The notes beneath the pieces are model-generated. The model did not search any database. It was not told where the DNA came from and saw only the letters and a program-made list of their open reading frames with translations. A DNA stretch of 64,000 nucleotides from Algihabitans albus (GTDB taxonomy: Bacteria; Pseudomonadota; Alphaproteobacteria; Kiloniellales; DSM-21159), in assembly GCF_003572205.1 (NCBI RefSeq), contig NZ_QXNY01000006.1:310001-374000 (forward strand), in the 5' to 3' direction. Below are positions 8,790 to 33,168 of the stretch, piece by piece (the stretch's first letter is position 1; each line of letters opens with the position of its first letter). A program made the translations under genes and the position numbers.

Positions 8790-8793
8790 GGCC

Positions 8794-10487: not shown

Positions 10488-10517
10488 CGGCCGGGCAGCA
10501 ACCAAGGGAGCTAGACC

Positions 10518-11783: not shown

Positions 11784-11794
11784 GAATCGCCGCC

Positions 11795-14488: not shown

Positions 14489-16291
14489 GTGACGCTCCTA
14501 CCGACACCGACAATCAACAGCAATCTCGATCTCCGCCTCGCGACCTTCGAGACCCTCTCCGAAGGGCTCGACTATGCGGCGCGTGGTGAGACGGGCTGCA
14601 ATTTCTTCTCTGGCCGCGGCCAGCTCGAAGCGGTGCTGCCCTATGCCGAGCTGCGTGAGCGCAGTGTGGAGGTGGCGCTGCGCCTGACCGGCATGGGGCT
14701 CCCGCGTGGTAGCCGCGTCGGCTTGATCGCGACCACCTCCGCGGACTTCATGATCTTCTTCTACGCCTGCCAGTATGCCGGCTTGATCCCCGTTCCGCTT
14801 CCGATCAGCACGAACCTCGGCGGCCGCAGCGCCTATGTCGAGCGGTTGCGTGCCATGCTCTCGGCGGCCGACGTGTCGCTGGCAGTTGCCGAAGCCGACA
14901 TGATCGACGTCCTGCGCGAAGCGGCCGAGGGTCTGGCCATCCGGATGGTTGGCACGCCGGGCGATTTCCGCGATCTTCCGGAGAGTCGGGGCGATCTTCG
15001 TCCTCTGGGCAAGGAGGATCCGGCCTATATCCAATACTCGTCGGGTAGCACGAGCATGCCGCGGGGTGTCATGATCACCCAGCGCGGTGTGACCAGCAAC
15101 GTGCTGGGCATCGCCCGTCACGGTCTGGCGCTCGAGTCCGGCGATCGCTGTGCATCCTGGCTACCGCTATACCACGACATGGGTCTGGTCGGTTTTTCCA
15201 TCACGCCGATGATGGGCCAGTTCTCCGCCGACTATCTGCCGACCTCGGCCTTTACCAAGCGTCCGCTGCTGTGGCTTCAGATCATCTCGGATCATGGCGC
15301 GACGATCTCCTTCGCGCCGACCATGGGGTACGACCTGTGCGTACGTCGGGCGGCGAAGGCGCAGGGCGGTACGTACGACCTGTCGCGCTGGCGCGTTGCC
15401 GGTGTCGGGGCGGAAATGATCCGTGCGGATGTGCTGGAGCAGTTCGCCATGCAGTTCGCGTCCTTCGGGTTCGACCAGCGGGCGTACCTGCCGAGCTACG
15501 GCTTGGCGGAATCGACGCTGGCCGTCAGCTTCGCGCCTCTGGGGCGGGGCTTGAAGACGGATCGTATCGACCGCCGTGCCTGCGAGGTGCTGCATCAGGC
15601 TCTGCCCGTTGCGAAGCTCGGCAATGGATCCGCCAAGAGGGCGCGGACCGTCGTGGTTTGCGGACGTCCCTTGCCGGATCATTCAGTCGAGATCCGCGAC
15701 AACGGCGGCAGGGTGCTGCCGGACCGGGAAATCGGGTCTATCCACGTGAAGGGCCCAAGTCTGATGGAGGGCTACTTCCAGGACGAGGGTGCCACGCAAA
15801 GCGCCGTGACCGAGGACGGCTGGCTGGATACCGGCGACCTGGGGTATCTCGCCGATGGCGAACTGGTGGTCACCGGGCGCCAAAAGGATCTGATCATCAG
15901 CAACGGGCGCAACATCTGGCCGCACGATCTGGAGTGGGCCCTGGAGAAATTGCCGGATCTGCGGACCGGCGGTGTCGCCGCCTTCTGCGTCGAGGATGAT
16001 ATCAAGGGCGAGCGCGTGGTCATCGTGGCCGAGTGCCGTTTGACCGACGAGGACGCGCGCCAGACCCTGGTTCGGGATATGCAGGGCGCCAGTCGTCTGG
16101 TCGCCGGGGTCGATCCTGAGGTCATGCTGGTTCCGACCCGCTCGCTCACCTTTACCTCTTCCGGCAAATTGAGCCGCGCTGCCGTCAAGGCGAGCTATCT
16201 CGGTGACAGGCTCGAACCCCTCAGCCTGAGCCGGCCCGCCGCCCCATTGGTGACGCTCGAACCTCTGCGTTCAGCGACCGACAGCGGCTGA
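14489..16291 (+). CDS. Fatty acyl-AMP ligase / acyl-ACP synthetase (FAAL type) of the sphingolipid locus
   Basis: A 600-aa adenylate-forming enzyme. WLPLYHDMGLVG (224-235) is the hallmark of fatty acyl-AMP ligases, which load fatty acids onto acyl carrier proteins instead of CoA. The nucleotide loop is YSSGSTSMPRG (183-193), and the C-terminal hinge is DTGDLGYLADGELVVTGRQKD. Six bp later the reductase gene starts, followed by an ACP and serine palmitoyltransferase. In Caulobacter an acyl-ACP synthetase sits beside spt and the dedicated ACP, so I infer it charges the ACP encoded at 17377. Start GTG 14489 has the weak site AGGTGAAGTG just upstream. Confidence 0.88.
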   Translation: MTLLPTPTINSNLDLRLATFETLSEGLDYAARGETGCNFFSGRGQLEAVLPYAELRERSVEVALRLTGMGLPRGSRVGLIATTSADFMIFFYACQYAGLIPVPLPISTNLGGRSAYVERLRAMLSAADVSLAVAEADMIDVLREAAEGLAIRMVGTPGDFRDLPESRGDLRPLGKEDPAYIQYSSGSTSMPRGVMITQRGVTSNVLGIARHGLALESGDRCASWLPLYHDMGLVGFSITPMMGQFSADYLPTSAFTKRPLLWLQIISDHGATISFAPTMGYDLCVRRAAKAQGGTYDLSRWRVAGVGAEMIRADVLEQFAMQFASFGFDQRAYLPSYGLAESTLAVSFAPLGRGLKTDRIDRRACEVLHQALPVAKLGNGSAKRARTVVVCGRPLPDHSVEIRDNGGRVLPDREIGSIHVKGPSLMEGYFQDEGATQSAVTEDGWLDTGDLGYLADGELVVTGRQKDLIISNGRNIWPHDLEWALEKLPDLRTGGVAAFCVEDDIKGERVVIVAECRLTDEDARQTLVRDMQGASRLVAGVDPEVMLVPTRSLTFTSSGKLSRAAVKASYLGDRLEPLSLSRPAAPLVTLEPLRSATDSG

Positions 16292-16297
16292 AGTAAG

Positions 16298-17275
16298 ATG
16301 GCGACTTACGCGCAGGCCAAGGCGTCGGTGCTGGCGAAAGCGCCGGTCGCGGTGACCGGCGCGAGCGGCTTCATCGGTCGTGCGCTGGTCAAGCGTCTGA
16401 GTGCGCGCGCGATCCCCTTGCGCCTGTTGCTCCGCCGCCCCGATCCGGAGCTTGAGGCGCTCGGCGTCGAGGTGGTGCGTGGGGCTCTCGATCGGGAGGA
16501 CAGCCTCCGCCGCCTGCTGGACGGCGCTGCGACCCTGGTGCATTGCGCCGGCGCCATACGGGCGCGCCGGGCTGCGGATTTCACGGCGGTCAACGAGACC
16601 GGCACGGCCCGCCTGGTCCGGCTCGCGGCGCAGTCCGCCTCCAGGCCGCGCGTTCTGCTGCTGTCGTCCCTGGCGGCCCGCGAGCCCGGCGTTTCCGCCT
16701 ATGCCGGGAGCAAGCTCGGCGGCGAAAGGGCGCTGGTCCGCGAGGCGGCGGGGCTCGAGCATTTTTGCCTGCGTCTGCCGGCGGTTTATGGACCGGGCGA
16801 CCGCGCCACCTTCGGCCTGTTCCAGCAACTCAATCGCGGACTGGGGATTCTGCCGGCTCCGTTGAACAATCGCTTCTCGCTTTTGTATCTGTCGGACCTG
16901 GAAAACCTCGTCGAGCATCTGCTGCGGCAGAAAGCCTGGTCTGGCGGGATCGCCGAAGTGGACGATGGGCGGGCCGGCGGATATGCCTGGAGCGAGCTTC
17001 CGGAGATCGCGGCACGACAGCTCGATCGGCGGGTGCGCGCCGTCTCTGTGCCGCAGCCGGTCCTCTGGGCAACCGCAGCGGGAAGCGAGGGGGTTGCCTC
17101 GCTTCTGGGCCGGGCACCGATCTGGACGCGAGGTAAGTTGAACGAGTTCTCTCACCCCGACTGGGTCAGTTGCGATGGAAAGTCGTCGGAACTGGAGGGA
17201 TGGGAGCCCGAGGTCCAGTTGGACCAGGGCCTTTTGGCCACGATCGCTTGGTATCGGCAGGCTGGATGGCTCTAA
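16298..17275 (+). CDS. cerR: NAD(P)-dependent epimerase/reductase, ceramide reductase-like
   Basis: A 325-aa extended SDR protein. The dinucleotide motif is TGASGFIG (20-27) and the catalytic pair is Tyr135/Lys139 in YAGSK. In Caulobacter an epimerase-like SDR encoded next to spt (CerR) reduces the 3-keto group of the sphingoid backbone. The genetic setting here (FAAL, SDR, ACP, SPT in a row) is the same, which is why I use that name. The alternative is a sugar-nucleotide epimerase, but no sugar-nucleotide genes are next to it. It is 6 bp after the FAAL gene. Confidence 0.7.
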   Translation: MATYAQAKASVLAKAPVAVTGASGFIGRALVKRLSARAIPLRLLLRRPDPELEALGVEVVRGALDREDSLRRLLDGAATLVHCAGAIRARRAADFTAVNETGTARLVRLAAQSASRPRVLLLSSLAAREPGVSAYAGSKLGGERALVREAAGLEHFCLRLPAVYGPGDRATFGLFQQLNRGLGILPAPLNNRFSLLYLSDLENLVEHLLRQKAWSGGIAEVDDGRAGGYAWSELPEIAARQLDRRVRAVSVPQPVLWATAAGSEGVASLLGRAPIWTRGKLNEFSHPDWVSCDGKSSELEGWEPEVQLDQGLLATIAWYRQAGWL

Positions 17276-17376: not shown

Positions 17377-17634
17377 ATGGTTGAGGCGGATCACCAAGCG
17401 ACCTTTGAAAGCATACGGAATATATTGGAGGTTTATAATGCCGAAGGTATCGAAATAACGACATCGACGAGACTGATGTCAGATCTGAACATCGATTCGG
17501 TGGCAGCTATGGATCTAATAATGGAAATAGAAGATCGCTTTGAGATCGATATCCCCGTGAACATGGTCTCGGACGTCGAGACCACACAGGATCTCGTTCG
17601 GATCGTCGTCGCGCGTTTGGAAAACCGCGCATGA
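17377..17634 (+). CDS. Acyl carrier protein dedicated to sphingoid base synthesis
   Basis: An 85-aa ACP. The 4'-phosphopantetheine attachment serine is Ser41 in LNIDSVAAMDLIMEIED, and helix II/III residues follow the normal ACP pattern (FEIDIPVNMVSDVETTQDLV). The gene is richer in A+T than its neighbours, with codons such as ATA and TTT, common for bacterial ACP genes but striking here. It overlaps the serine palmitoyltransferase start by 4 nt, so the carrier and the enzyme that uses its acyl thioester are translationally coupled. It is not next to fab genes, hence not the housekeeping ACP. Confidence 0.9.
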   Translation: MVEADHQATFESIRNILEVYNAEGIEITTSTRLMSDLNIDSVAAMDLIMEIEDRFEIDIPVNMVSDVETTQDLVRIVVARLENRA

Positions 17635-18872
17635 CGGATATTTTCGACAAGTACGGCGACATCGCCGTCCGCCACGACCAGCTCCTGGACGCAGGCGCCG
17701 ACCCTTTCGGCGTTTGTTTGGAGGAGGTCTATTCGCCCACCGAAGCCATGGTCAACGGACGGCGGACGATCCTCGCCGGAACCAACAATTACCTCGGCAT
17801 TACTTTCGATCCGGCCTGTATCGAAGCCGCTGCCCAGGCGATCCGCAAACACGGGACGGGGACGACCGGGTCGCGAATCGCGAACGGGACCTATTCGAAC
17901 CACCGCCAGCTGGAAGACGAGCTGGCCAGTTTCATGAACTGCCGTCATGCTTTGGGCTTTCCGACGGGGTACCAGGCGAACCTGGGGATGCTGGTCGGCC
18001 TGGCGGGCCCGAAAGACGTGATGCTGATCGATGCGGACTCGCATGCCAGCATCTACGACGGTGCCCGGCTAAGCGGCGCGACCATCGTGCGGTTCCGCCA
18101 CAACGACCCGGCCGACCTGGACCGCCGGCTCCGTCGCCTTGAGGGTGAGGGCAAGAGCCACCTGGTGGTCGTAGAGGGCATTTACAGCATGCTGGGCGAC
18201 CGCGCGCCGATTGCGGAGTTCGCCGAGGTCAAGAACAAGCACGGTGCCTATCTTCTGGTCGACGAAGCGCACTCCCTCGGCGTCTTGGGAGACACCGGCC
18301 GAGGTGCGGCGGAAGCCGAGGGCGTTGCCGATCAGGTCGACTTCTACGTCGGAACCTTCAGCAAGAGCCTTGGGTCGGTCGGCGGTTTCGGCGCGTCCAA
18401 CCATCCGCGGTTCGAGGTGCTGCGCTACTGCAGCCGACAGTACATGTACACCGCCTCTTCGGCGCCCTCCAATGTGGCGTCGGTGATCACGGCGATCCGT
18501 CAGATCCGCAACGATTCCACTCTGCGTGAACGTCTGTGGCGCAACGCGGAAGAGGTCTATCAGCGGCTCCTGGCGCAGGGCTTCAAGATCTGTGCCCCGA
18601 CGAGCCCGATCATCGCGGTGCAGCTTCCGGATATCGAGACGGCCTACTACGCCTGGAGCCGGCTTCTGGAGGCCGGCGTCTATGTCAACCTGGCCGTTCC
18701 GCCGGGGACGCCACACGGCGAGTCGCTTCTGCGCTGCAGTGTCTCTGCGGCTCACACGGAAGCGCAGATCAACGAGATCTGCCGCCGGTTCGAAGACATC
18801 GCCCAGGAGCTTGCGAGCCAGATGCCGGTACAGGAGCCGGCTCCGGTCATGATGGCGCAAGCCGGGGATTGA
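17631..18872 (+). CDS. spt: Serine palmitoyltransferase (alpha-oxoamine synthase)
   Basis: A 413-aa PLP enzyme that condenses L-serine with an acyl thioester to give 3-ketosphinganine. The PLP-binding lysine is Lys245 in GTFSKSLGSVGGF. VDEAHSLGVLG carries the aspartate and histidine that hold PLP, and NNYLGITFDP with GTGTTGSRIANGT are typical of the family. PPGTPHGESLLRCSVSAAHT near the C-terminus fits the bacterial SPT group better than biotin (BioF) or KBL enzymes. The coupled ACP gene and FAAL support SPT over BioF. As in other soluble bacterial SPTs there is no membrane helix. Confidence 0.9.
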   Translation: MTDIFDKYGDIAVRHDQLLDAGADPFGVCLEEVYSPTEAMVNGRRTILAGTNNYLGITFDPACIEAAAQAIRKHGTGTTGSRIANGTYSNHRQLEDELASFMNCRHALGFPTGYQANLGMLVGLAGPKDVMLIDADSHASIYDGARLSGATIVRFRHNDPADLDRRLRRLEGEGKSHLVVVEGIYSMLGDRAPIAEFAEVKNKHGAYLLVDEAHSLGVLGDTGRGAAEAEGVADQVDFYVGTFSKSLGSVGGFGASNHPRFEVLRYCSRQYMYTASSAPSNVASVITAIRQIRNDSTLRERLWRNAEEVYQRLLAQGFKICAPTSPIIAVQLPDIETAYYAWSRLLEAGVYVNLAVPPGTPHGESLLRCSVSAAHTEAQINEICRRFEDIAQELASQMPVQEPAPVMMAQAGD

Positions 18873-18911: not shown

Positions 18912-19907
18912 ATGACCGGCGACTTCACGTATATCGAGGGGCAGTGCAGCCATGTCGGCCGGCGGCGCGGCATTTTGGCCGAGCACCCCGAGGTCAAGAG
19001 TCTGATGGGCCGCAATCCCTGGACCGCCGCCTGGGTGATCGGGCTCGTGGCGGCTCAGCTCGTGGTCGCGAGTCTGGTGGTGGAAATCCATTGGGCCTGG
19101 ATTTTGGTTATCGCCTACTGCTTCGGCGCTTTCCTCAACCATGCTCTCTATGTCTTGATCCACGAATGCACCCACGGGCTGGTCTTCAAGAAGCGCAGTC
19201 ACAACAAGATCATTGGGATCATCTGCGACTTCGCTCTCGCGATTCCGAGCGCGATGGCCTTCCGCAAGTACCATTTGATGCATCACAAGCATCTTGGCGA
19301 GCACGGTTCGGACCCGGATATCGTCAGCCATGCCGAGGCGCGCTTGGTCGGAAATTCGGCCTGGCGCAAGGCCATCTGGATGTTCTTCTTCTCGATCTCT
19401 CAGGCGCTTCGGCCGATGATGGTGAAGGGAACGGAATTCTGGGACCCCTGGATCGTCGCCAACGTCCTGGTTCAGCTTTTCGTCAATCTTGCCGTCTTCC
19501 TGCTCCTTGGCCCTGCGGCTCTGGCCTATCTGCTGCTGTCCACCGTCTTCGCGCTGGGCCTGCATCCTCTCGGCGGGCGCTGGATTCAGGAGCACTACCT
19601 GACGGAACCGGGGCAGGAGACCTATTCCTATTACGGCCCCTTGAACGCGCTCTGCTTCAACATGGGCTTCCATAACGAGCACCACGACTTCGCCAATGTG
19701 CCCTGGAACAACCTGCCGCGGCTGCGCAAGCTGGCGCCGGAGTTCTACGACGGACTGAAGTCCTACCGCTCTTGGACGGCGGTGCTGGCGAATTTTATCT
19801 TCAATCCGGCGATGTCGACTTACAGCCGGATTGTGCATACGGCGCCGACCGAGCCGCCGCCTGCGCATCCTCGCCCAGCCGCCTCTGCTGCCCAACAGGC
19901 TCCGTGA
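18912..19907 (+). CDS. DEGS-family dihydroceramide (sphingolipid) Delta4-desaturase homologue
   Basis: A 331-aa membrane di-iron protein. Histidine boxes are HECTH (84-88), HLMHHKH (121-127) and HNEHH (254-258). The N-terminal RRRGILAEHPEVKSLMG, then GLHPLGGRWIQEHY, ETYSYYGPLNALCFN and NEHHDFANVPWNNLP, align directly with eukaryotic DEGS1, which puts the 4,5-trans double bond into dihydroceramide; ordinary fatty-acid desaturases lack these blocks. It lies 39 bp after spt and overlaps the lipid kinase gene by 4 nt. I infer a (4E)-sphingenine product, or 4-hydroxylation as in DEGS2. Hydrophobic segments near residues 40-80, 101-115 and 180-220 fit a four-helix membrane enzyme. Confidence 0.9.
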   Translation: MTGDFTYIEGQCSHVGRRRGILAEHPEVKSLMGRNPWTAAWVIGLVAAQLVVASLVVEIHWAWILVIAYCFGAFLNHALYVLIHECTHGLVFKKRSHNKIIGIICDFALAIPSAMAFRKYHLMHHKHLGEHGSDPDIVSHAEARLVGNSAWRKAIWMFFFSISQALRPMMVKGTEFWDPWIVANVLVQLFVNLAVFLLLGPAALAYLLLSTVFALGLHPLGGRWIQEHYLTEPGQETYSYYGPLNALCFNMGFHNEHHDFANVPWNNLPRLRKLAPEFYDGLKSYRSWTAVLANFIFNPAMSTYSRIVHTAPTEPPPAHPRPAASAAQQAP

Positions 19908-20872
19908 CCGGTCTGCCTATCGGGCTCGTCAGCAACACCCTTAGCCTGAGCAACCGTGCCGGGATTCCTGACCCGCCCCCTTCCGGTCCGTCCTCCGCCG
20001 CCATCATCCATCGCCCGATCGAGGGTTTGAGCGGTCTGGCGGAGGCGCTCGACGATTTCGCCGACGCTGGCGCGGGCGTGATCGCGATCAACGGCGGCGA
20101 TGGCACCGTTTCCGCGGTCCTCACCGAGCTGATGTCGGGCACGCGGTTTCGCAGCCCGCCGCTGCTGGCGTTGCTGCGCGGGGGAACGCTGAACATGTGT
20201 GCCGACGATGTCGGCCTGGCGGGGCCGAGGGACCGCGCCCTGGCCCGCCTGCTGCGCTGCGCCGAGGCCGGCCGGCTCACCGAGCGCCTCGCCGACCGCC
20301 ATGTCATTCGCGTGCGCCGCGAGGGCGATCTGCCGCCGGTCTATGGCATGTTCCTCGCCTTCGGCAGCCTCTATCGCGCGATCCGCTACAGCTACGACGA
20401 AGTTCCGGGACGCCACAGCCACCCGCGTCTTCACACCCTCCGGACGCTCGGCGCCCTGATCGTCCGGCATCTGGCGAACGGCGGCGCGTCCGACCGGATC
20501 CTGCGGGGCGAGTGCGTCGGGCTCGGCGTCGACGGGGCGGAAGCGGAGGAGATGACTCTGCTGCTGGCCCTGGCGACCACCTTGGATCGTCTGGTGCTCG
20601 GATTCCGGCCCTACTGGGGCGGCGACGGCGGCGGGCTGCGTTTTACCGCGCTCGGCCATCCGCCCGACCGCTTGATACGGCGCGCCTTTCGCGTTCTCTA
20701 CGGAGGACCGGCGCGCCGGCTGCCGGTCGAAAGCTACCGGAGTTACAATGCCGAGCGCGTGCGGATCGGTCCGGGACTGCCCTTCGCGCTCGACGGCGAG
20801 CTCTATGAGACCGCGCCGGAGAGCTGGCTGGAGTTGAGCGCGGTCGGACCCGTGAGCTTCGTGAGGTGCTGA
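19904..20872 (+). CDS. Diacylglycerol/sphingosine/ceramide kinase-like lipid kinase
   Basis: A 322-aa protein with the DAG-kinase catalytic motif GGDGT (64-68) in VIAINGGDGTVSAVL and a glycine-rich LLRGGTLNMCADDVG after it. The C-terminal half is the beta-sandwich typical of YegS/sphingosine kinases. GTG 19904 overlaps the desaturase stop (GTGA), and its own stop shares a base with the next gene (TGATG). In Caulobacter a lipid kinase of the sphingolipid locus (CpgB) phosphorylates ceramide, so ceramide or dihydroceramide is the likely substrate here. The N-terminal strand region before GGDGT is short and carries a proline-rich insertion around residues 20-30. Confidence 0.8.
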   Translation: MTGLPIGLVSNTLSLSNRAGIPDPPPSGPSSAAIIHRPIEGLSGLAEALDDFADAGAGVIAINGGDGTVSAVLTELMSGTRFRSPPLLALLRGGTLNMCADDVGLAGPRDRALARLLRCAEAGRLTERLADRHVIRVRREGDLPPVYGMFLAFGSLYRAIRYSYDEVPGRHSHPRLHTLRTLGALIVRHLANGGASDRILRGECVGLGVDGAEAEEMTLLLALATTLDRLVLGFRPYWGGDGGGLRFTALGHPPDRLIRRAFRVLYGGPARRLPVESYRSYNAERVRIGPGLPFALDGELYETAPESWLELSAVGPVSFVRC

Positions 20873-21849
20873 TGTCGGACGATGGCGCCGAAATCGCCGG
20901 GATCATCGAGTCCGAGTTGGAGCAGCCGGTCTCCGCCGCGGTCGTCGCGGCGGCCGAGGAGATCCGGCGGCGCCACGGAGAGGCGGTGCAGGCTTGCCTG
21001 TTCTACGGCTCTTGCCTGCGGGACGGTCGCGACGAGGGCCGCGTGCTCGATTTCTATGCCCTGGCGGATAGCTATCGCGCGTTTCACGACAGCCGCGTCA
21101 TGGCCTTTTTGAACCGGCTTGTGCCCCCCAACGTCTACTATCTCGAAATGCCCTTCCAGGGCCGGACGGTGCGCGCCAAATACGCCGTGATTTCCATGGC
21201 GGCCCTGGCCCGCGACAGTTCGCCGGCTGCCCTGGTCCCGACGATCTGGGCCCGCATGGCGCAACCTTGCGCCTTGCCCTATGCGCGTAACGGAGAGGTG
21301 CGGGCCCGGGTTCGCGATGCCTTGGTGCAGGCGGTCCGGACGACGGTCTCTCAGACCCTGCCTCTGTTGCCGCCGCGGTTCTCCGCCAGCGAGCTCTGGA
21401 CCCGCGCCTTTCGCGAGAGCTACCGGACCGAATTCCGGGCCGAACGGGTGGGCCGGTCGGAGGTGCTGCACGGTGCCGCCGTCGAGCGTTACGCGCGGCT
21501 GAGCGCGGGCGCGCTCGGTGCCGAGGCCCGGCAGGTTTCGCAGGCAGCCGCGTCCGACGCCGCCGCGCGCGCGGGCGAAGGTCCGAGCTTCGATCACGCC
21601 GCCGATCCCGGTCGCCGCCGGACGGCCGAGCGGCGCTGGTACTGGCGGCGCCAGGCCGGTCGCTGTCTGCACGTGCTGCGGCTGATCAAGAACGCGCATA
21701 CCTTCACGGACGGTCTCGACTACGTGCTTTGGAAAATCGAGACCCATTCCGGCATTCGCACCGAGCCCACGGCCTGGCAGCGCCGCCACCCCCTGCTGGC
21801 GGCACCCGGCCTCGCCTGGCGTCTCTATCGCAAGGGCGCGTTCCGCTAA
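20872..21849 (+). CDS. Tam41-like cytidylyltransferase, predicted to act on the phosphorylated sphingolipid
   Basis: A 325-aa protein with a nucleotidyltransferase-type active site: FYGSCLRDG (44-52) followed by LDFYAL (59-64). PPNVYYLEM (85-93), GRTVRAKYAVISM (97-109) and WARMAQPC follow the pattern of mitochondrial Tam41 (MMP37), which makes CDP-diacylglycerol from CTP and phosphatidic acid. It is unlike CdsA and has no membrane helices. Its start shares one base with the lipid-kinase stop. I infer that it converts the kinase product (ceramide 1-phosphate) to CDP-ceramide for head-group attachment; phosphatidic acid is the alternative substrate. The region about 200-250 is rich in Arg/Ala and variable. 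Confidence 0.68.
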   Translation: MSDDGAEIAGIIESELEQPVSAAVVAAAEEIRRRHGEAVQACLFYGSCLRDGRDEGRVLDFYALADSYRAFHDSRVMAFLNRLVPPNVYYLEMPFQGRTVRAKYAVISMAALARDSSPAALVPTIWARMAQPCALPYARNGEVRARVRDALVQAVRTTVSQTLPLLPPRFSASELWTRAFRESYRTEFRAERVGRSEVLHGAAVERYARLSAGALGAEARQVSQAAASDAAARAGEGPSFDHAADPGRRRTAERRWYWRRQAGRCLHVLRLIKNAHTFTDGLDYVLWKIETHSGIRTEPTAWQRRHPLLAAPGLAWRLYRKGAFR

Positions 21850-25604: not shown

Positions 25605-26573
25605 TCACGCGGGGGCGTCGGAGGCCGCCCGGCGCGTGATGTCCTTCGGCCAGCGCCGTTTGGAGCAAAGCCAGTCGCCCGGGCGTTCGGTGATCCAGGC
25701 CTCGTAGTGGGAGAGGATGTCCTGGGTCAGCGCGCGGGCGGCCTCGTGTTCGTCGCGGGCCTCGGCGCTGACGCGGATCGGTTTCATCAGGTGGACGCGA
25801 AAGCTGGCGCCCTCTCGCCGCTCCACGCGCACGGGGACCATCGGGACCTTCGTCCGCAGGGCCAGGCGTGCGGGAACCAGGGACGTCATCGCATCGATCC
25901 CGAAGAAGGGGACAAGTTCCCCCTCGTCGGACCGGGTATCGATCAGCATGCCGATGCTTCGCCCCTTGGAGAGCGCCGCCAGACTTCCGCGAATGGATTT
26001 TCGCTTTTCGATCAGCTCGCAGGCCAAGCCCCGGCGCATCCTCAGCACCCGGTCGGCGATGTAGGGATTTTGCTGTGGGCTGTAGACGACGCTGAGGGGC
26101 AGGCCGAGACGATGGGCGATGGCGCCGGCCGCGATCTCCCAATTGGCGATATGCGCCGTGACGAACATGATCGGCTTGCCGTCCCGCACCAGGTCCTCAA
26201 CCTCGCTGTCGACCAGCATTTCGGGTCCCTCGTCGGCGGATCCTGCGCAGATCCTCCCCACGTGGGGATACTCGGCCAGAACGCGCCCGGTCGCCGCCCA
26301 GCTCTGCCGCGCCAGGGCGGCGATCTCCTCCTGGCTCTTGTTCGGAAAGGCGATGCTGAGGTTGCGCACGGAGTGGCGGAACTTCGAGAGGCGAGGGGCG
26401 TAGGACCAGACCAGACGGTGGCCGATGGCGGAAGCGACCCGTGGCGGCAAGAGGGAACAGATCCCCCAGAAGGCCGACAGGAAGGCGTATTCGGCCCCCC
26501 AGACCATCTTTCTGATCCGTGGCGAGCGCTGAGCGGCTCCATCCAAAAAGGGCGTCAGGTAGGTGCGTGCCAA
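25605..26573 (-). CDS. LpxL/HtrB-like lipid acyltransferase
   Basis: A 322-aa inner-membrane acyltransferase of the late lipid A type. One N-terminal hydrophobic segment is present (AEYAFLSAFWGICSLLP). The catalytic HX4E is His141/Glu146 in TAHIANWE, and IDTRSDEGELVPFFG corresponds to the second conserved block of LpxL. It converges on the DJ-1 gene with only 7 bp between stops and lies 197 bp downstream of lptG. Housekeeping lpxL genes are not usually placed with sphingolipid genes, so it may acylate a sphingolipid or a lipid A variant; this is an inference. Confidence 0.82.
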   Translation of the reverse strand: MARTYLTPFLDGAAQRSPRIRKMVWGAEYAFLSAFWGICSLLPPRVASAIGHRLVWSYAPRLSKFRHSVRNLSIAFPNKSQEEIAALARQSWAATGRVLAEYPHVGRICAGSADEGPEMLVDSEVEDLVRDGKPIMFVTAHIANWEIAAGAIAHRLGLPLSVVYSPQQNPYIADRVLRMRRGLACELIEKRKSIRGSLAALSKGRSIGMLIDTRSDEGELVPFFGIDAMTSLVPARLALRTKVPMVPVRVERREGASFRVHLMKPIRVSAEARDEHEAARALTQDILSHYEAWITERPGDWLCSKRRWPKDITRRAASDAPA

Positions 26574-26770: not shown

Positions 26771-27880
26771 TCAGTTACCGGCGCTCAGCAGCGCGCGTGC
26801 CGGCGGCCGGTTCCCCGAATCCCGGAAGATGAGGACGCTCCCGACGAGGCTCCCAAAGGCGATCACCGGACCCCAGGCCGCAAGCCAGGGCGGGAGAACG
26901 GCGAGTTCCCCCATTGCCAAGGTGGCCCGTGCGAAAACCAGGTAAGCGAAGCTGATGGCGACGGCGGCGGCGAAGATCCAGGCGAGCGTGCGGCGTGCGC
27001 GCAAGTATTGGCCGAGTGAGACGACCAGCGTCATCATGAGCAGCGGCGCCAGGGCTGCCGCCAACCTCTGATGGAACCAGGTCTCGTAGACCTCGACCCG
27101 GCGCTGACCGTAGGCATCGTTGGCCGCCAGGTTGCGCATCTCCGCCAGGTTCAGTTCTCTAGGTTCGACCGATAGTTGAATCAGTTGGTCCAGATCCAGC
27201 CGCCCGGCCCAGAACAGCGTCGGTATCCGGTTGCTCCGTTGGGTGAGGGCGTCGTACTGCCGGACCTCGCGCAACAGCCATCCGTCCTCGGTCGGTTCGG
27301 CTCCGGCGGCGCTCAAATGCTCGATCAGAGCGCCGGACTCGTCGCGGCGGAAAATCACGATGCCGCGCAGTTCGCCGGAGCGCGCGGACTCCGTCGGGAT
27401 GCGCAGCAAGTCGGCACCGCTGCGCAACCACACATTGCCGGAATCGTCCCCCAGCCTGCTGCTTTCGAAGCTGTCCATCCCCAATTCCCGCACCTGCTCC
27501 ATGGCGGGCGGAACACCCCAGTTGTCGACGGCGAACTGCAGGCCGACCAGGAGAAAAGAGATCGGCAGCAGTCCGAAGATCAGGCGGGCCGGAGAGGTGC
27601 CGGTGCTCCAGATGACCTCCAACTCGTGATGACGTGCCAGTTCGCCCAAGGTCATGATGGCACCGAGCAGTGTGGCGATCGGCAAGAGGTGCGAGACGAA
27701 GTCGGGAAGCCGCCAGAGGGCATAGCGGACCAGGGAAGTGGGATCGCCGTTCGAGGCGCTCAGGACGTTGTCGCCCCGCTCGAGCAACTCGAAGCTGAGC
27801 AGAACCGCGACCATACCGAACATGACCAGAGCGAATCTGGCGACGAAGAGGCGCGTGAAGTAGAGACTCAGGACGCGCAT
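26771..27880 (-). CDS. lptG: LptG-like permease (YjgP/YjgQ family)
   Basis: A 369-aa inner-membrane protein with three N-terminal and three C-terminal transmembrane helices flanking a periplasmic beta-jellyroll region. It is the partner of the adjacent LptF-like protein. The start MRVLSLYFTRLF is typical of LptG, and LATLLGAIMTLGELARHHEL-like sequence (ATLLGAIMTLGELARHHELE) is the conserved coupling helix for LptB. ATG 27880 overlaps the end of lptF by 13 nt. The family extracts LPS from the inner membrane; here the neighbours are sphingolipid genes instead of the usual lptD/surA/pdxA group. Confidence 0.88.
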   Translation of the reverse strand: MRVLSLYFTRLFVARFALVMFGMVAVLLSFELLERGDNVLSASNGDPTSLVRYALWRLPDFVSHLLPIATLLGAIMTLGELARHHELEVIWSTGTSPARLIFGLLPISFLLVGLQFAVDNWGVPPAMEQVRELGMDSFESSRLGDDSGNVWLRSGADLLRIPTESARSGELRGIVIFRRDESGALIEHLSAAGAEPTEDGWLLREVRQYDALTQRSNRIPTLFWAGRLDLDQLIQLSVEPRELNLAEMRNLAANDAYGQRRVEVYETWFHQRLAAALAPLLMMTLVVSLGQYLRARRTLAWIFAAAVAISFAYLVFARATLAMGELAVLPPWLAAWGPVIAFGSLVGSVLIFRDSGNRPPARALLSAGN

Positions 27881-29151
27881 CGCCTGGCCTCCGCCTCGAC
27901 CGGGGAACGGGTTGGGTCCGGGCCGCGCGATACGGCCTGCCGCGCTCCGGACCATGCCAGGATGGTCCCCAGCGACAAGCGTTGGGCGACGCGCAGGAAA
28001 GCCGCGAGGCTGGCCGCGAGGAAGACGAGGAAAGGCAACCAGAGCCCGAGGAGCGGCGATGTCTTCTCCGACTCCACGAGGTTTTCGCCGAAGCTGAGAG
28101 TCTCGTGATAGCCGATCAGGACGACGATGCCGATAGCAATGCCGATCAGACGGCCGCGGCCACGATTGCGTGTGCCGAGGGCCAGCGGCACGGCCAGGAA
28201 CGGCAGCACCAGGACGGACAGGATACGCACGATCCGGCCATGGAACTCGGCCACCATGTCGGCTGGGTCGACCTCCAGTCCCAGCCTATGGCGCTGCTGC
28301 CAAAGCTCCGACAGGGTCATTTCGCGCTCGTGACTGCCGCGCGGCGGGAAGGCACCGCTCGAGCCTCCGGCCAGGCCGGCAGTCCGACTTTCGAAGCGCA
28401 AGGTCCCCTTTTCCGCGGCCCCGGCTTCGGACTCCGACTCATCGGTTTCGGCGCCCCGGTCGGCTCCGTCTTCCGTCGGTCCCCTCGAGCCCGGACCGGC
28501 GCCTGGACCGTGCAGAAGCACGCCGTTCTGCAATACGACCGTCGGCGCTTGGCCGCTCTCGCCCAGCACCAGCAACCCCTCTTCGGCCGTGACGGCGGTC
28601 CAGGCGCCGTTGTCGTTCTGCGTGTAGAGAAACACCTGCCGGAATTGCCGGCGGTCCGTGGAAATCTCCTCGACGAAGAGGGTGGTGCCCTCGATGCTCG
28701 TGAAGGTGCCGGGCTCCAGGATCGCCTGGATCACCGTGCTGGTCGCCGAGTGCACCATCGATTTGTAGGCGTAGCGGCTGTGGGGCTGCAGGTAGCCCAG
28801 TGTCGCCAAGGAGATGGCCGCGACCACCAGAGCGACCCCCAGGCTCGGCCACAGCAGCCGAAACAGGCTGATCCCGCTTCCCAGCAGGGCGTCGAGTTCG
28901 CTGTCGCGGTGCAGCCGCCGGAACCCGATCAGGACGCCCAGGAAGAAGCCGAAGGGCAGGGCGAGTCCGATGTAGTGGGGCACGAGATAGGTCAGCATCT
29001 GCACGAGAACGCGCAGCGGCCCTTCCGTGCCCAACGCCAAGTCGAGAAGCCGAAGCAGGCGTTCTACCAGCAGCACCAGAAGCGCGAGCAGGAGCGTCAC
29101 CGCAAAGGGGCACAAGGTCTCGCTCAGCAGGTAGCGGTCCAGCGTCTTCAT
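27868..29151 (-). CDS. lptF: LptF-like permease with an acidic periplasmic insertion
   Basis: A 427-aa member of the YjgP/YjgQ family, longer than the usual 360-390. Helices lie at about 15-37, 50-78, 98-120 and in the last 130 residues. LIGFRRLHRDSELDALLGSG is the conserved coupling segment contacting LptB. Between residues about 215 and 248, inside the periplasmic jellyroll, there is an extra Gly/Asp/Glu/Ser-rich stretch (TEDGADRGAETDESESEAG). No LptB, LptC or LptA gene is visible in the window, so the pair would share the cellular ATPase. Downstream overlap with lptG indicates co-expression. Confidence 0.88.
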   Translation of the reverse strand: MKTLDRYLLSETLCPFAVTLLLALLVLLVERLLRLLDLALGTEGPLRVLVQMLTYLVPHYIGLALPFGFFLGVLIGFRRLHRDSELDALLGSGISLFRLLWPSLGVALVVAAISLATLGYLQPHSRYAYKSMVHSATSTVIQAILEPGTFTSIEGTTLFVEEISTDRRQFRQVFLYTQNDNGAWTAVTAEEGLLVLGESGQAPTVVLQNGVLLHGPGAGPGSRGPTEDGADRGAETDESESEAGAAEKGTLRFESRTAGLAGGSSGAFPPRGSHEREMTLSELWQQRHRLGLEVDPADMVAEFHGRIVRILSVLVLPFLAVPLALGTRNRGRGRLIGIAIGIVVLIGYHETLSFGENLVESEKTSPLLGLWLPFLVFLAASLAAFLRVAQRLSLGTILAWSGARQAVSRGPDPTRSPVEAEARRCAS

Positions 29152-29451: not shown

Positions 29452-30387
29452 TTATTCGGGCTTCGGCACAAGGATGGTTTCCCGCGTTTCCGCCGGCTTC
29501 AGGGCTCCTTCTTCTTCAAAGTAGGTACGTGCGCTCACATCGACACGCCAGGCATTCCCTTCGCGGCCGATGGCGTAGAGCTGATAGAGCGCCGCAGGAC
29601 GGCCATGGCTGGCAAGCGCCGAAGCAGAGGGGACGCCGCAGACCGGCACGGGGCCGGCAGGACCCGGAATCCGCCCCCGGCTGTGGCGGTGATCGTGTCC
29701 ATGCAGCACCAGTTCCGCCCCGGTTCGGGCGATCGCCTGGCGGAAGGCCGCAGCGTCGATCAGGCGCTTTCGGGATTTGACGGCTCCGGCGATCGGCGGG
29801 TGATGCAGCAAAACACAGCGAAACAGGCCCTCGCGGCCGAGCTGGATCAGGCTGTCTTCCAAAGCTTCGATCTGCCTCGTCCCGAGCTTGCCGGTGGCGA
29901 AGGCCGGTGGCGTCGGCAGCGCCGTCGAGAGACCGATCAGGGCCACCTCCCCGATGCGGCGCAGGAAGGGAAACCCGGTCGCCTGTTCTGCCGTCTCATC
30001 TGCCGCCATGTCGGCGCCGTCATGAGAGGTCATGTAGGCCGCGATATGTCCCAGGGAGTCGGCCCAGGGCACTGCGACGCTGGCGTCGTGGTTGCCGGGG
30101 ACCACGCTGACGGAATCGGGCGGCCCCAACGCGCGCAGCCAGGTGGCGGCCTGTTCGAATTCGGCGGGCAGGGCGATGTTGGTGAGATCGCCCGTGACAA
30201 CCGTGTGGTCGGGGGCGGCGGCCCGCAGGTCGCGGGTGAGCGCGTCCAGTACCTCGCGCCTGTGAATATGCTGCCGGCGCCGTCTCCAGGAGAGATATCC
30301 GAGCAGCCGTTTGTTGGCCAATTGCCGCCACCGCACTGGCGGCAGAGGCGCGATATGGGGGTCGGAGAGGTGGGCCAGCCTGAACAT
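29452..30387 (-). CDS. Calcineurin-like metallophosphoesterase
   Basis: A 311-aa protein with the ordered metal-binding motifs of the family: DPH (LAHLSDPHIAP, Asp9/His11), GD in VVTGDLTN, GNHDA, and later HHPP and HGHDH. Such enzymes hydrolyse phosphomonoesters or nucleotide-diphospho lipids (LpxH/UDP-diacylglucosamine hydrolase-like or CDP-lipid related). It starts 3 bp downstream of the NTP-transferase gene and is part of the bcerS-like operon, so a lipid-linked or nucleotide-activated head-group intermediate is a reasonable substrate guess. No signal peptide is present, so it acts in the cytoplasm or at the membrane face. Confidence 0.85.
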   Translation of the reverse strand: MFRLAHLSDPHIAPLPPVRWRQLANKRLLGYLSWRRRRQHIHRREVLDALTRDLRAAAPDHTVVTGDLTNIALPAEFEQAATWLRALGPPDSVSVVPGNHDASVAVPWADSLGHIAAYMTSHDGADMAADETAEQATGFPFLRRIGEVALIGLSTALPTPPAFATGKLGTRQIEALEDSLIQLGREGLFRCVLLHHPPIAGAVKSRKRLIDAAAFRQAIARTGAELVLHGHDHRHSRGRIPGPAGPVPVCGVPSASALASHGRPAALYQLYAIGREGNAWRVDVSARTYFEEEGALKPAETRETILVPKPE

Positions 30388-30390
30388 CGC

Positions 30391-31200
30391 CTAAACGGGA
30401 GCGCCGGAGCGTTGGCGCAGAATGCCCTCCACCAGGGTCAGGTCGGCGGGCTTGTCGACGTCGATCGCGGCCTCGGCGACAGGCAGGACGACGGCGGCGC
30501 AGGTCACGCCGGTCAGCTTCGAGATGTGGCGGGCCGCATCGTCCAGACTGAGCCGTCCGAGCAGATAGCGGGCGAGCATCAGCGGCCCCAGGGCCCAGGC
30601 CATGCGCCAGGGACGCTTGCGCTCCTGTTCGACCCGGCCCCAGAAGTCGACGACGCGAAGCCCGTCCGGATCCATCACGGCATAGAGGTTGCAGCCGCTG
30701 TAGGATCCGCCGCGCAGGTTCAGGTAGGTGCGCTTGGCGTCTGGGTAGGCGGCCTGGATCGTGGAGGCGCTGGTGACCCCGGTCACCACCGCGGCGCCGG
30801 TTTCCAGCGCCAGTGCGCAGAACCGCTCGACCAGGTCAGGTGTCAACAGCGCGTGATCGGCCGTCGTGATCAGGTAGGGCGGCGGCGCTTGCAGCGTCTT
30901 CAACGCCCGCAGGACGCTCTGACTGGGGCTGTCGGCGGTCGCGACGGCGCCGGGGCGGGCATGGCCTTCGCGGGTGACGAAGGCGACGATGGATTCCAGC
31001 ACGGCGGGGCTCTCGACCGATACCGTGATCCCGTCGACGCAGGCGCTTCGATTGAGGGCATCGACGACGCGGCCGAGCATCGGCACGCCGCCGGTGGGGA
31101 CCAGGCAGCGGTGGCTGACGCCCGCCGCGTCCGCCAGAGCGTCGCGGCCGGGCCGCTGGCCCGCCAGCACCAGTGCGGTGAAGCTCGGTTCCACCGTCAT
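30391..31200 (-). CDS. MobA-like NTP transferase (nucleotidyltransferase)
   Basis: A 269-aa protein with the sugar/alcohol-phosphate nucleotidyltransferase fold. FTALVLAGQRPGRDALA is a degenerate form of the LAxGxGxR nucleotide loop, LVPTGGVPMLGRVVDAL follows it, and LITTADHALLTPD carries the metal-binding aspartate. NLRGGSYSGCNLYAV is the acceptor region. ATG 31200 overlaps the stop of the upstream GNAT gene by 4 nt. I infer that it activates a head-group precursor (CDP- or similar) for the sphingolipid; the substrate is unknown. The missing glycine pattern in the first loop deserves attention. Confidence 0.75.
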   Translation of the reverse strand: MTVEPSFTALVLAGQRPGRDALADAAGVSHRCLVPTGGVPMLGRVVDALNRSACVDGITVSVESPAVLESIVAFVTREGHARPGAVATADSPSQSVLRALKTLQAPPPYLITTADHALLTPDLVERFCALALETGAAVVTGVTSASTIQAAYPDAKRTYLNLRGGSYSGCNLYAVMDPDGLRVVDFWGRVEQERKRPWRMAWALGPLMLARYLLGRLSLDDAARHISKLTGVTCAAVVLPVAEAAIDVDKPADLTLVEGILRQRSGAPV

Positions 31201-32360
31201 GACAGCTGCTTCTCGAAGATGCGGTAGGTCTTGTAGGCCTCGCCGCCCCAGGCCTCGACAATCCGTCGGGCCGGCAGATTGTCTTCCAGGACCCAGGAGA
31301 GTTCCGCCCAGATCAGCCCGCGACGCCGATGGTGATCGCGGATGCGGTCGATCACGCCGAGGGCCAGGGCCGTGCCGCGCGACGTGCCGTGGAACCGCCG
31401 CTTGACGCCCATGATCGCGATGCGTCCGCTTTTCAGGCCGCGCACCTTGAGGCGCCAGAGCAGCTTGAGCCAGCCGAAGGGCAGCAACCGTCCGCCCAGT
31501 CCGGCGAAGGCCTCGTTCATGTTGGGCAGGATGACGCACATCGCCACGGGCTCGCCGTCCACCACTCCGAAGCAGATCGATTCGGCGGTCAGCAGGGGCT
31601 TGAGATTGGTCTCGAGGTACGTCACGTCAGCGTCGGTCATCGGGGCGAAGCCCCAGTTGTCGGACCAGGCGTCGTTGAAGATCTCCTTGATGTGCTGAAG
31701 CTCACGCGTGACGTCGGCCAGGTTGGCATCGCGGAATTCCAGCTTCTTGGCGCGTTGTGCGTTGTCCAGAAAGGCGCGCGCCGCCGGCGGTGCGGCGGCC
31801 GCGACGTCGTAGTGGTAGGCGACCATATCCTTCGCCTTCCGATAGCCCTGTTGCTCCAGACGATCCGCGTAGTAGGGCGGTGCATAGTTCATCATGAAGC
31901 AGGCCGGCGAGTCGAAGCCCTTCACCAGCAGGCCGCACTCGTCGTTGATCGAGAGGCTGAAGGGGCCTTGGACCCTCGTCATGCCGCGCTGGCGCAACCA
32001 GTCTTCCGCCGTGCCGCAGAGCCGGTTGAAGACCTCGGGGTCGTCTTCGGCCTCGAGGCATCCGAAATGACCGATGGCGTCGCCCCTCCGCTCTAATTGC
32101 CTGCGGTCGATCTGGGCGCTGATCCGGCCGACCGGCCGTCCCTGGCGCGTGGCCGTCCAGTAGGCGAACTCGGCCTGCGCGAAGAAGGGATTGCGGCGTG
32201 GATCGAAGTGCCGCAGGCGCTCGAAGCGCAGCGGTGCGATCCAATTGGGATCGTCGGCGTGAAGGACCTCGGCCACCTCGAAGAAGCGCGTCAGGTCGCG
32301 GCGGCTGCGACCTTGTTCGACCGACAGCGTGGCCGGCGTTGCGGCGGGGGATCTGTCCAT
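31197..32360 (-). CDS. bcerS: GNAT-like N-acyltransferase, candidate bacterial ceramide synthase
   Basis: A 387-aa soluble protein built of two GNAT-like halves. HADDPNWIAPLRFERLRHFDPRRNPFF near the start and RVQGPFSLSINDECGLLVKGFD in the middle are typical of the large acetyltransferase-like family that is often mis-annotated. The Caulobacter bacterial ceramide synthase (bCerS), which N-acylates the sphingoid base, is reported as a GNAT-superfamily protein of similar size within the sphingolipid gene region. Its location with a fatty-acid hydroxylase 34 bp upstream, and spt 12 kb away, supports that role. The start may also be TTG 32366. Assignment by context and family resemblance only. Confidence 0.62.
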   Translation of the reverse strand: MDRSPAATPATLSVEQGRSRRDLTRFFEVAEVLHADDPNWIAPLRFERLRHFDPRRNPFFAQAEFAYWTATRQGRPVGRISAQIDRRQLERRGDAIGHFGCLEAEDDPEVFNRLCGTAEDWLRQRGMTRVQGPFSLSINDECGLLVKGFDSPACFMMNYAPPYYADRLEQQGYRKAKDMVAYHYDVAAAAPPAARAFLDNAQRAKKLEFRDANLADVTRELQHIKEIFNDAWSDNWGFAPMTDADVTYLETNLKPLLTAESICFGVVDGEPVAMCVILPNMNEAFAGLGGRLLPFGWLKLLWRLKVRGLKSGRIAIMGVKRRFHGTSRGTALALGVIDRIRDHHRRRGLIWAELSWVLEDNLPARRIVEAWGGEAYKTYRIFEKQLS

Positions 32361-32394
32361 GGGCAAAGCTACGCCGGTTCCGGCGCCTGTCAGG

Positions 32395-33168
32395 CTACTC
32401 GCCGGGGGCGGGGCACACCGGATCCGGTCGCCGGGGCGCGTCGGAGAGTTCGGCCACCCAGGGGTAACGCTCGGCCTGCTTGGTCGTGTAGCCGAGGTTG
32501 AAGACGGTGGGGCTGCGCTTCACCTGCTTGGCGTGGGGATAGTAGGTGCCGAAGGCTCGGTCCCAAGCGAAGCTTGTGATCCCGAAGTTGCCCTGCTCGT
32601 TGTGGAAGTGATGCGCCACGTGACTCTTCTTGATCCGTTGCAGCCAGGCCGACCGCGGCTTGAAGGGCAGGTGCTGCGCGCAGTGGCAGAATTCGTAGAA
32701 GGCGAAGACCAGCAGGCCGGCGGCGAAGGCCGCGGCCGCCGAGCCCGGACCGCCGATGGCCCAGCCGAGCGGCAGGGTGATCACCGCGATGGGCGGCAGC
32801 GTGGTGTGAAGCGCGCCGAACAAGACGCTCATATCGTTGGGGTTCTGATGATGGTCGAAGTGAATCCGCTTCCACAGGCGCGCGGTCAGGGGGGATTTGT
32901 AGAGGAACTGGGCGTGCAGCACGAAGCGGTGCAGCAGGTACTCGACCAAGGGATAGAGCGCGATCGTCACGGCGGCGGCCAGCAGCGGCTTCCAAAGGCT
33001 GTCGGTGAGCAGCACCGACGCCGTAATCGCCGCTGCGGCGAGCGCGAGATAGACCAGAATGGCGTAATGCGTGAAGTAAGCTTTGACCAGATCGGCAAGA
33101 CTCATCTTGTCGAGAAAGTACTTGCGACCCGCCCAGACCCCGAAATCGACCACAGAGATCCCTCTCAC
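32395..33168 (-). CDS. Fatty-acid hydroxylase/sterol desaturase superfamily protein
   Basis: A 257-aa membrane di-iron oxygenase. Histidine clusters appear as HRFVLH (80-85), HFDHH (103-107), HCAQH and HVAHHFHNE. Hydrophobic helices surround residues 33-55, 62-80, 120-155. Members hydroxylate sphingolipid acyl chains (FA2H/Scs7), sphingoid bases (Sur2) or carotenoids. Being first of the minus-strand run with the ceramide-synthase-like gene, it most likely hydroxylates a ceramide or its fatty acid. GTG 33168 is the longest start and lies behind AGTGAGAGG-like purines; GTG 33153 is an alternative. Confidence 0.82.
   Translation of the reverse strand: MRGISVVDFGVWAGRKYFLDKMSLADLVKAYFTHYAILVYLALAAAAITASVLLTDSLWKPLLAAAVTIALYPLVEYLLHRFVLHAQFLYKSPLTARLWKRIHFDHHQNPNDMSVLFGALHTTLPPIAVITLPLGWAIGGPGSAAAAFAAGLLVFAFYEFCHCAQHLPFKPRSAWLQRIKKSHVAHHFHNEQGNFGITSFAWDRAFGTYYPHAKQVKRSPTVFNLGYTTKQAERYPWVAELSDAPRRPDPVCPAPGE

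Follow-up and report, generated by a model that had tools for sequence, protein, structure and literature searches.

A candidate CpgB-CpgC gene pair encoding a lipid kinase and a protein with a predicted Tam41-type fold in a sphingolipid gene cluster of Algihabitans albus

The Caulobacter pathway and the kinase-CpgC pair of A. albus

The closest described relative of the locus presented here is the ceramide phosphoglycerate (CPG) pathway of Caulobacter, to which we compare a pair of neighbouring genes, encoding a putative lipid kinase and a CpgC-type protein, in a 64,000-nucleotide stretch of the Algihabitans albus genome (assembly GCF_003572205.1, contig NZ_QXNY01000006.1, positions 310,001 to 374,000; hereafter the window). 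According to the parts of the literature covered here, CpgB of Caulobacter has been proven to be a ceramide kinase (PMC10331486). The cluster includes genes for a phosphoesterase (CC_1158), a protein of the cytidine diphosphate (CDP)-alcohol transferase type (CC_1159, CpgA), the ceramide kinase (CC_1160) and serine palmitoyltransferase (SPT; spt, CC_1162), with CC_1162-CC_1165 and CC_1154 as ceramide synthesis genes, and second copies of LptC, LptF and LptG (PMC11324152). Mutants of CC_1161, the gene of CpgC, make neither CPG nor CPG2, mutants of CC_1153 and CC_1152 (the latter matched to CpgD via the gene numbering) still make CPG, and CC_1160 alone restores CPG in a CC_1159/CC_1160 mutant (PMC11324152); CpgA, too, is dispensable for CPG. 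That CpgC makes a nucleoside diphosphate (NDP)-activated ceramide was proposed in 2024 with the nucleotide left open, in a paper that also keeps an older proposal, the direct attachment of glycerate by CC_1161, and whose main text does not name Tam41 (PMC11324152). CpgD makes CDP-glycerate for the second head-group unit, and the mechanism of CpgC is called unidentified both in the consulted sections of that 2025 study (PMC12275187) and in those of a 2026 preprint (PMC13228409). CPG lipids help Caulobacter live without lipopolysaccharide and set its polymyxin sensitivity (PMC12275187; PMC11324152).

The two genes of the window are very probably the counterparts of cpgB and cpgC, the pair that serves ceramide phospho-head-group synthesis, and we consider it reasonably probable that the CpgC-type protein converts cytidine triphosphate (CTP) and ceramide 1-phosphate into CDP-ceramide. 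The gene would thus correspond to one already studied genetically, and the CpgC proposal is in print; what is new here is the structural test, the breadth of the family, the linkage numbers, and a reduced cluster with a desaturase. A full-text literature search, outside whose scope lay the original Caulobacter CPG and Firmicutes Tam41 papers, returned no match for "CDP-ceramide" and related terms and, for CpgC and its locus tags, led only to the four Caulobacter papers cited above and one unrelated paper; the sections covered of a paper on Bacteroides inositol sphingolipids (PMC9246714) hold nothing on a Tam41-type step.

Fold and active site of the CpgC-type protein

An AlphaFold2 model of the CpgC-type protein, made from alignment A2, has a mean predicted local distance difference test score of 93.7 and a predicted template modelling (TM) score of 0.91. 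In a Foldseek comparison with the PDB the top five chains are all Tam41 (6ig2, 6ig4, 7ecd; E 8e-9 to 7e-7), followed by ANT(4') at E 2.8e-4. VIA-align, which re-examined Foldseek's own ranks and covers only the families listed there, gave Z 18.9 to 7ecd, a Firmicutes Tam41 in complex with CTP and Mg (2.9 Å over 227 residues), values of 17.2 and 16.5 to Tam41 of S. pombe, and then 7.2 to aminoglycoside nucleotidyltransferases (NTases). Since the Tam41 matches cover up to residues 1-278 of the model, and those of the next family about 20-160, the resemblance exceeds the NTase core. The model thus predicts a Tam41-type fold, which bears out what the first-pass annotation had read from the motifs GSCLRDG (residue 46), LDFY (59), NVYY (87) and KYAVISM (103); these, the GGDGT motif of the kinase, and the single base common to the two genes all lie where it had placed them. 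Relatives share 31-55% identity in alignments of 30 and 81 sequences (window counted in), and a chance open reading frame (ORF) or artefact is ruled out by these relatives and by the confident model.

Many NTases carry a second acid at the position equivalent to residue 62 of this protein. In alignment A1 (the window and the 29 best-scoring other loci of a class search in which 43 genomes matched and 30 loci were kept, chosen by overall similarity with no motif) no sequence has an acid at this position (Y 28, C 1, F 1 of 30), and D60 is present in all 30 sequences; the third acid position was not located. The other invariant residues are G46, K103, W126, R128, Q131, E187, R189, K273, Y284, K288 and H292, and S47 is kept in 29 of 30. 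Tam41, as described in the sections of PMC11646218 covered here, retains one of the three NTase acids and accommodates CTP with basic residues, a description that D60 alone, together with the invariant basic residues, fits. The protein has the single active-site acid ascribed to Tam41. The highest 19-residue hydropathy of the protein is 1.05.

Linkage to sphingolipid synthesis and the activity of CpgC

Among the 385 genomes sampled from the Alphaproteobacteria, a relative of CpgC was detected in 42 (profile search, E 1e-5 or better), and in 43 by tblastn at E 0.001, one of these being a weak match with two stops; the 385 genomes were taken as one set across the CpgC, Lipid_DES and SPT counts, as the handles agree. 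SPT was detected in 49 of them (NF047599, E 1e-110 or better, a limit at which the E. coli control also matched and which may let in further members of the enzyme family), 48 being above the curated cut-off (the exception is G246). It was found in 41 of the 42 genomes with CpgC versus 8 of the 343 without (Fisher 5.6e-46, related genomes being treated as independent). The lone CpgC genome without an SPT match (G334) carries an SPT-like ORF (35%) beside CpgC, and at the SPT locus of the seven genomes examined among the eight with SPT only, neither the kinase nor CpgC was seen. A CdsA-type CTP_transf_1 protein is encoded in six of six genomes checked, including that of the window, and another genome of the same genus (G028) has CdsA and shows neither SPT nor CpgC. 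CpgC is thus part of sphingolipid metabolism rather than of the general synthesis of phospholipids.

Named genomes hold at least 587 relatives, 80 of which are listed, with the labels Alpha-, Delta- and Gammaproteobacteria, Nitrospirota, Binatia, Nitrospinota, Marinimicrobia and others, although labels of metagenome-assembled genomes may be wrong; none of the 80 listed is labelled Caulobacter. These 80 loci were found by a peptide pattern at residues 42-51, where conservation is given by construction, and since named and unnamed loci overlap (e.g. L003, L038) the two sets were not summed. In 76 of the 80 the gene immediately upstream, on the same strand, encodes a kinase like that of the window (exceptions L040, L065, L080 and L100), as recounted from BLAST (66 of 76 in an earlier automatic ORF count), and of the 29 loci other than the window in the class search, 25 have a kinase match within their short flanks. 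The kinase and the co-occurrence with SPT sustain the tie to ceramide synthesis made in the first-pass annotation, and the genome has a separate housekeeping CDP-diacylglycerol synthase. CpgC relatives are also carried by 17 plasmid records (Roseomonas 13, Pseudomonas 2, Diaphorobacter 1, Qipengyuania 1) and were annotated "hypothetical protein" in all five records opened.

In the proposed mechanism, the CpgB-type kinase would phosphorylate ceramide to ceramide 1-phosphate, and CpgC, with no evident membrane helix, would move cytidine monophosphate (CMP) from CTP onto it, giving CDP-ceramide and pyrophosphate. A CDP-alcohol phosphotransferase, to which we assign no particular gene, may then let a small polar alcohol, probably glycerate or phosphoglycerate, displace CMP to form CPG, which the second LptF/LptG pair might help to carry outward. 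To call CDP-ceramide the head-group donor, as had been done from the motifs, would be incomplete, as the second Caulobacter unit comes from CDP-glycerate via CpgD (PMC12275187, in part). For the genome of the window, a CpgA-like query gave only 25.5 bits, on a 248-residue frame, and the best CpgD candidate 30.6 bits over 65 residues; both were rejected. The genome has five places with PF01066 (CDP-alcohol transferase), one of them PgsA, and their frames of 202-267 residues, compared with mostly 370-420 for CpgA-like ORFs, led us to reject CpgA; with 19 contigs and an estimated completeness of 99.28%, the absence of CpgA and CpgD is not absolute. As neither was found, the product should stop at a single head group or bear another decoration.

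Several observations weigh against CDP-ceramide synthesis by this protein, or against its assignment. Pfam Tam41_Mmp37 (PF09139), to which the first-pass annotation had looked for confirmation, gave a borderline result, with 21.1 bits (E 2.2e-4) and the gathering cut-off of 24 missed; at E 0.01 or better it matches 27 of the 81 members of the family (the best at 2.6e-9) and leaves 54 unmatched, and across 398 genomes of the phylum it matches two (the window's and one other), neither above the cut-off. No Tam41 entry came up, even at E up to 10, when the PDB sequences were searched with a profile; the sole match was a 120-residue nucleotidyltransferase-domain protein (E 0.029). NCBIfam gave no match at E 0.01. 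The Foldseek TM scores for the Tam41 chains are moderate (0.50-0.53 on the query, root-mean-square deviation 5-7 Å), and the last 47 residues fall outside the VIA match. The Caulobacter vibrioides control genome showed no PF09139 match at E 0.001, a silence that neither confirms nor breaks orthology given the 54 unmatched family members, and the assignment to CpgB-CpgC draws on cluster content and on gene order in related loci, the CC_1161 sequence lying outside the comparison. No dedicated CDP-ceramide transferase is evident: Caulobacter CpgA is dispensable for CPG, and as many as 20 of the 42 well-flanked loci, that of the window among them, have neither a CpgA-like nor a CpgD-like gene nearby; these neighbour counts stem from automatic ORF picking at 42 loci (one a 24-kb slice of the window), which misses some genes, for example several kinases and the nucleotidyltransferase of the window itself, so that presence is a lower and absence an upper bound. 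Finally, we found no measured CpgC activity or biochemical proof in the papers located.

The weak point of the mechanism is the displacement of CMP: either CDP-ceramide is the substrate of one of the five CDP-alcohol transferase domains, or both half reactions fall to CpgC. If the latter were true, CpgC would itself join ceramide 1-phosphate and glycerate as a CPG synthase, and CDP-ceramide would be at most a bound intermediate and not a free liponucleotide. To our knowledge, no enzyme with the Tam41 or NTase fold carries out both halves of such a reaction, and one of the five domains could do the second step, for which reasons we hold such a synthase to be unlikely, even though many loci show no CDP-alcohol transferase nearby and, among the Caulobacter cluster genes tested, CPG depended on CC_1160 and CC_1161 only (PMC11324152, in part). 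The fold, being that of Tam41, a lipid-activating enzyme known from mitochondria that makes CDP-diacylglycerol, might point to a second CDP-diacylglycerol synthase acting on phosphatidic acid; this seems very improbable, and as a housekeeping function it was rejected, given the separate CdsA, the way CpgC follows SPT and the ceramide-kinase-type gene, and the CdsA-bearing genome of the same genus that shows neither CpgC nor SPT.

Activation of a small soluble molecule such as phosphoglycerate would recall the other nucleotidyltransferases of these clusters, and CpgD as a maker of CDP-glycerate; yet CDP-glycerate already comes from CpgD, whose gene CPG formation does not require, the substrate of the Tam41 relatives is a membrane lipid, and the 10 K/R versus 4 D/E among the C-terminal 60 residues of CpgC would suit membrane binding, all of which makes a soluble substrate improbable. 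That CpgC uses another nucleotide, making for instance UDP- or GDP-ceramide (uridine and guanosine diphosphate, respectively), is hardly to be expected: the published proposal leaves the nucleotide open (PMC11324152, in the sections covered), whereas the best structural match is the CTP-Mg complex of Tam41, with the reservation that the fold does not fix the base. We thus retain CDP-ceramide synthesis from CTP as the favoured activity of CpgC. It is quite possible, and suggested here tentatively, that the CpgC family as a whole represents a CTP:ceramide-1-phosphate cytidylyltransferase of Tam41 fold and wide distribution, that CDP-ceramide serves bacteria generally as a liponucleotide, as a counterpart of CDP-diacylglycerol, and that in genomes like the present one, where CpgA and CpgD are lacking, ordinary CDP-alcohol phosphotransferases draw on it, with sphingolipid head groups made by glycerophospholipid chemistry. 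If true, CDP-ceramide would be a new activated lipid, Tam41-type enzymes would gain a sphingolipid substrate, and the plasmid genes for "hypothetical proteins" would gain a function. The Tam41 fold, the lone-acid site, and the linkage to the kinase and SPT turn the 2024 speculation into a sharp assay with named residues.

Cluster layout and comparison with known systems

The first-pass annotation had placed the pair at the end of an SPT operon, which holds with a desaturase and an acyl carrier protein as further members; the cluster, in addition, continues on the minus strand, from 33168 to about 25605 (Table 1). Between the two halves lie genes for a TonB-dependent receptor and a DJ-1/PfpI protein, among others. 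Two further ORFs of the window that had been translated were discarded as overextended or probably no genes.

Table 1. Genes of the putative sphingolipid cluster in the window.
Feature	Coordinates	Strand	Support or remark
Fatty acyl-AMP ligase	14489..16291	+	NF006624, 744.7 bits
SDR/epimerase-type reductase, taken as ceramide reductase (presumably CerR)	16298..17275	+	Domain match and neighbour comparison
Acyl carrier protein (PP-binding)	17377..17634	+	
Serine palmitoyltransferase (SPT)	17631..18872	+	NF047599, 634.8 bits; above curated cut-off of 500
Fatty acid desaturase, Lipid_DES domain (sphingolipid Delta4-desaturase type)	18912..19907	+	Pfam
CpgB-type lipid kinase, proposed ceramide kinase	19904..20872	+	DAGK_cat, GGDGT; 322 amino acids, GTG start
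CpgC-type protein, predicted Tam41 fold, proposed CTP:ceramide-1-phosphate cytidylyltransferase	20872..21849	+	325 amino acids; profile, alignments, model
Lipid A-type acyltransferase	25605..26573	-	Recurrent neighbour in a few loci
Second LptG-like permease, putative sphingolipid export	26771..27955	-	
Second LptF-like permease, putative sphingolipid export	27868..29151	-	
Metallophosphoesterase, taken as CC_1158 type	29452..30387	-	
NTP_transf_3 nucleotidyltransferase, type placed at CC_1153	30391..31200	-	Probable start; longest ORF to 31539
GNAT protein, taken as CC_1154-type ceramide synthase (presumably bCerS)	31197..32366	-	
Fatty acid hydroxylase, recurrent cluster neighbour	32395..33168	-	

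Like CerR and bCerS, the single names of CC_1163-CC_1165 and CC_1154 are assumed by us. The stop TGA of the kinase (20870-20872) and the ATG of the CpgC-type gene (20872-20874) have one base in common, and the kinase start overlaps the desaturase end by four bases (GTGA, 19904-19907); with overlaps of four and one bases among the last three genes of the operon, coupled translation is expected. The kinase matches Pfam DAGK_cat at 32.5 bits (cut-off 23.6), with GGDGT at residue 64. The desaturase is of a eukaryotic sphingolipid type: its match to Lipid_DES, a domain of sphingolipid Delta4-desaturases, reaches 35.1 bits (cut-off 23), and the domain was matched in only 2 of the 385 genomes; a PDB sequence search gave no match for either protein at the limits used. 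Another locus (L059) carries a relative of the desaturase (61%) beside its own CpgC. With a desaturase in the spt operon, a bacterial ceramide bearing a double bond of the sphingosine type is to be expected. A sulfotransferase domain adjoins the cluster (about 34228-35100, minus strand) within a longer, probably overextended ORF. An ELM1-type glycosyltransferase is encoded further on (42254-43423, minus strand), and genes of this type also lie near CpgC clusters on Diaphorobacter, Pseudomonas and Roseomonas plasmids.

Recurrent neighbours of CpgC across loci encode SPT, an acyl carrier protein, a reductase, an acyl-AMP ligase, a GNAT protein, an LptF/LptG pair, a phosphoesterase, a CDP-alcohol phosphotransferase, two nucleotidyltransferase families and a fatty acid hydroxylase; also recurrent is a protein whose MatE match stays under the cut-off. 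For one of the nucleotidyltransferase families the nearest PDB match is CTP:phosphocholine cytidylyltransferase, the relative named for CpgD in the sections covered of PMC13228409. A frequent order is phosphoesterase, CDP-alcohol transferase, kinase and CpgC, then SPT, acyl carrier protein, reductase and acyl-AMP ligase (e.g. L059, L072, L078). Gene order in such loci, like the cluster content, agrees with Caulobacter CC_1152-CC_1168 (PMC11324152, in part). Two CpgA-like genes are found in 8 of the 80 listed loci, and in two loci (L045, L048; around 7700-12430) they flank the pair in the order CDP-alcohol transferase, kinase, CpgC, CDP-alcohol transferase, an arrangement that would suit two separate condensations.

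Some loci depart from this pattern. A CDP-alcohol transferase gene directly precedes CpgC, with no kinase found in between, at L183 (G186), L040 and L164. Three others (L122, L123 and L166, in G244, G325 and a Qipengyuania plasmid) combine the kinase-CpgC pair and a DUF2141 gene with no SPT nearby, G244 and G325 carrying SPT elsewhere in the genome. At one SPT locus (L180, G355) LptF/LptG occur with a CpgA-like (36%) and a weakly CpgD-like (25%) gene, and neither kinase nor CpgC was found, possibly reflecting a different head-group route. A conjugative IncP plasmid of Diaphorobacter (L164/L175; NZ_CP065408.1, about 41360-68593) apparently carries a whole sphingolipid route: an aminotransferase whose place suggests the SPT type, an acyl carrier protein, an acyl-AMP ligase, an SDR, the kinase, CpgC, two CDP-alcohol transferases, nucleotidyltransferases and LptF/LptG. 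In the vicinity lie a Tn3 transposase gene and genes related to mercury and arsenic.

Among known systems, Caulobacter CpgC (CC_1161, CCNA_01219) resembles the window gene in lying beside the ceramide kinase gene in an spt cluster of equal content; a CDP-diacylglycerol-synthase InterPro domain is reported for it, and it is not among the proteins with membrane-helix predictions in S2 Fig of the same paper (PMC11324152, in part). The window differs in the inserted sphingolipid desaturase gene and in a genome where CpgA and CpgD were not found. Its kinase-CpgC pair runs in the direction of spt, in most other loci with spt nearby in the opposite one. The kinase, known here from its sequence, is like CpgB (CC_1160) of the DAGK type and next to CpgC, the CC_1160 sequence being outside the comparison. 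With Tam41 (6ig2 and 6ig4 of S. pombe; 7ecd of a Firmicutes bacterium) the CpgC-type protein has in common the predicted fold, at the Z scores given above, and the single active-site acid, but the two are only 13-15% identical, the Pfam cut-off is missed and the context is that of sphingolipids and not of phosphatidic acid. CpgD also performs a CTP-dependent activation in the same pathway, and differs by its COG1213-type fold and its product, CDP-glycerate (PMC12275187, in part). CdsA (PF01148), finally, likewise makes a CDP-lipid, but is an integral membrane enzyme unrelated to Tam41 (PMC7018664, in part) and is encoded separately in the genome of the window.

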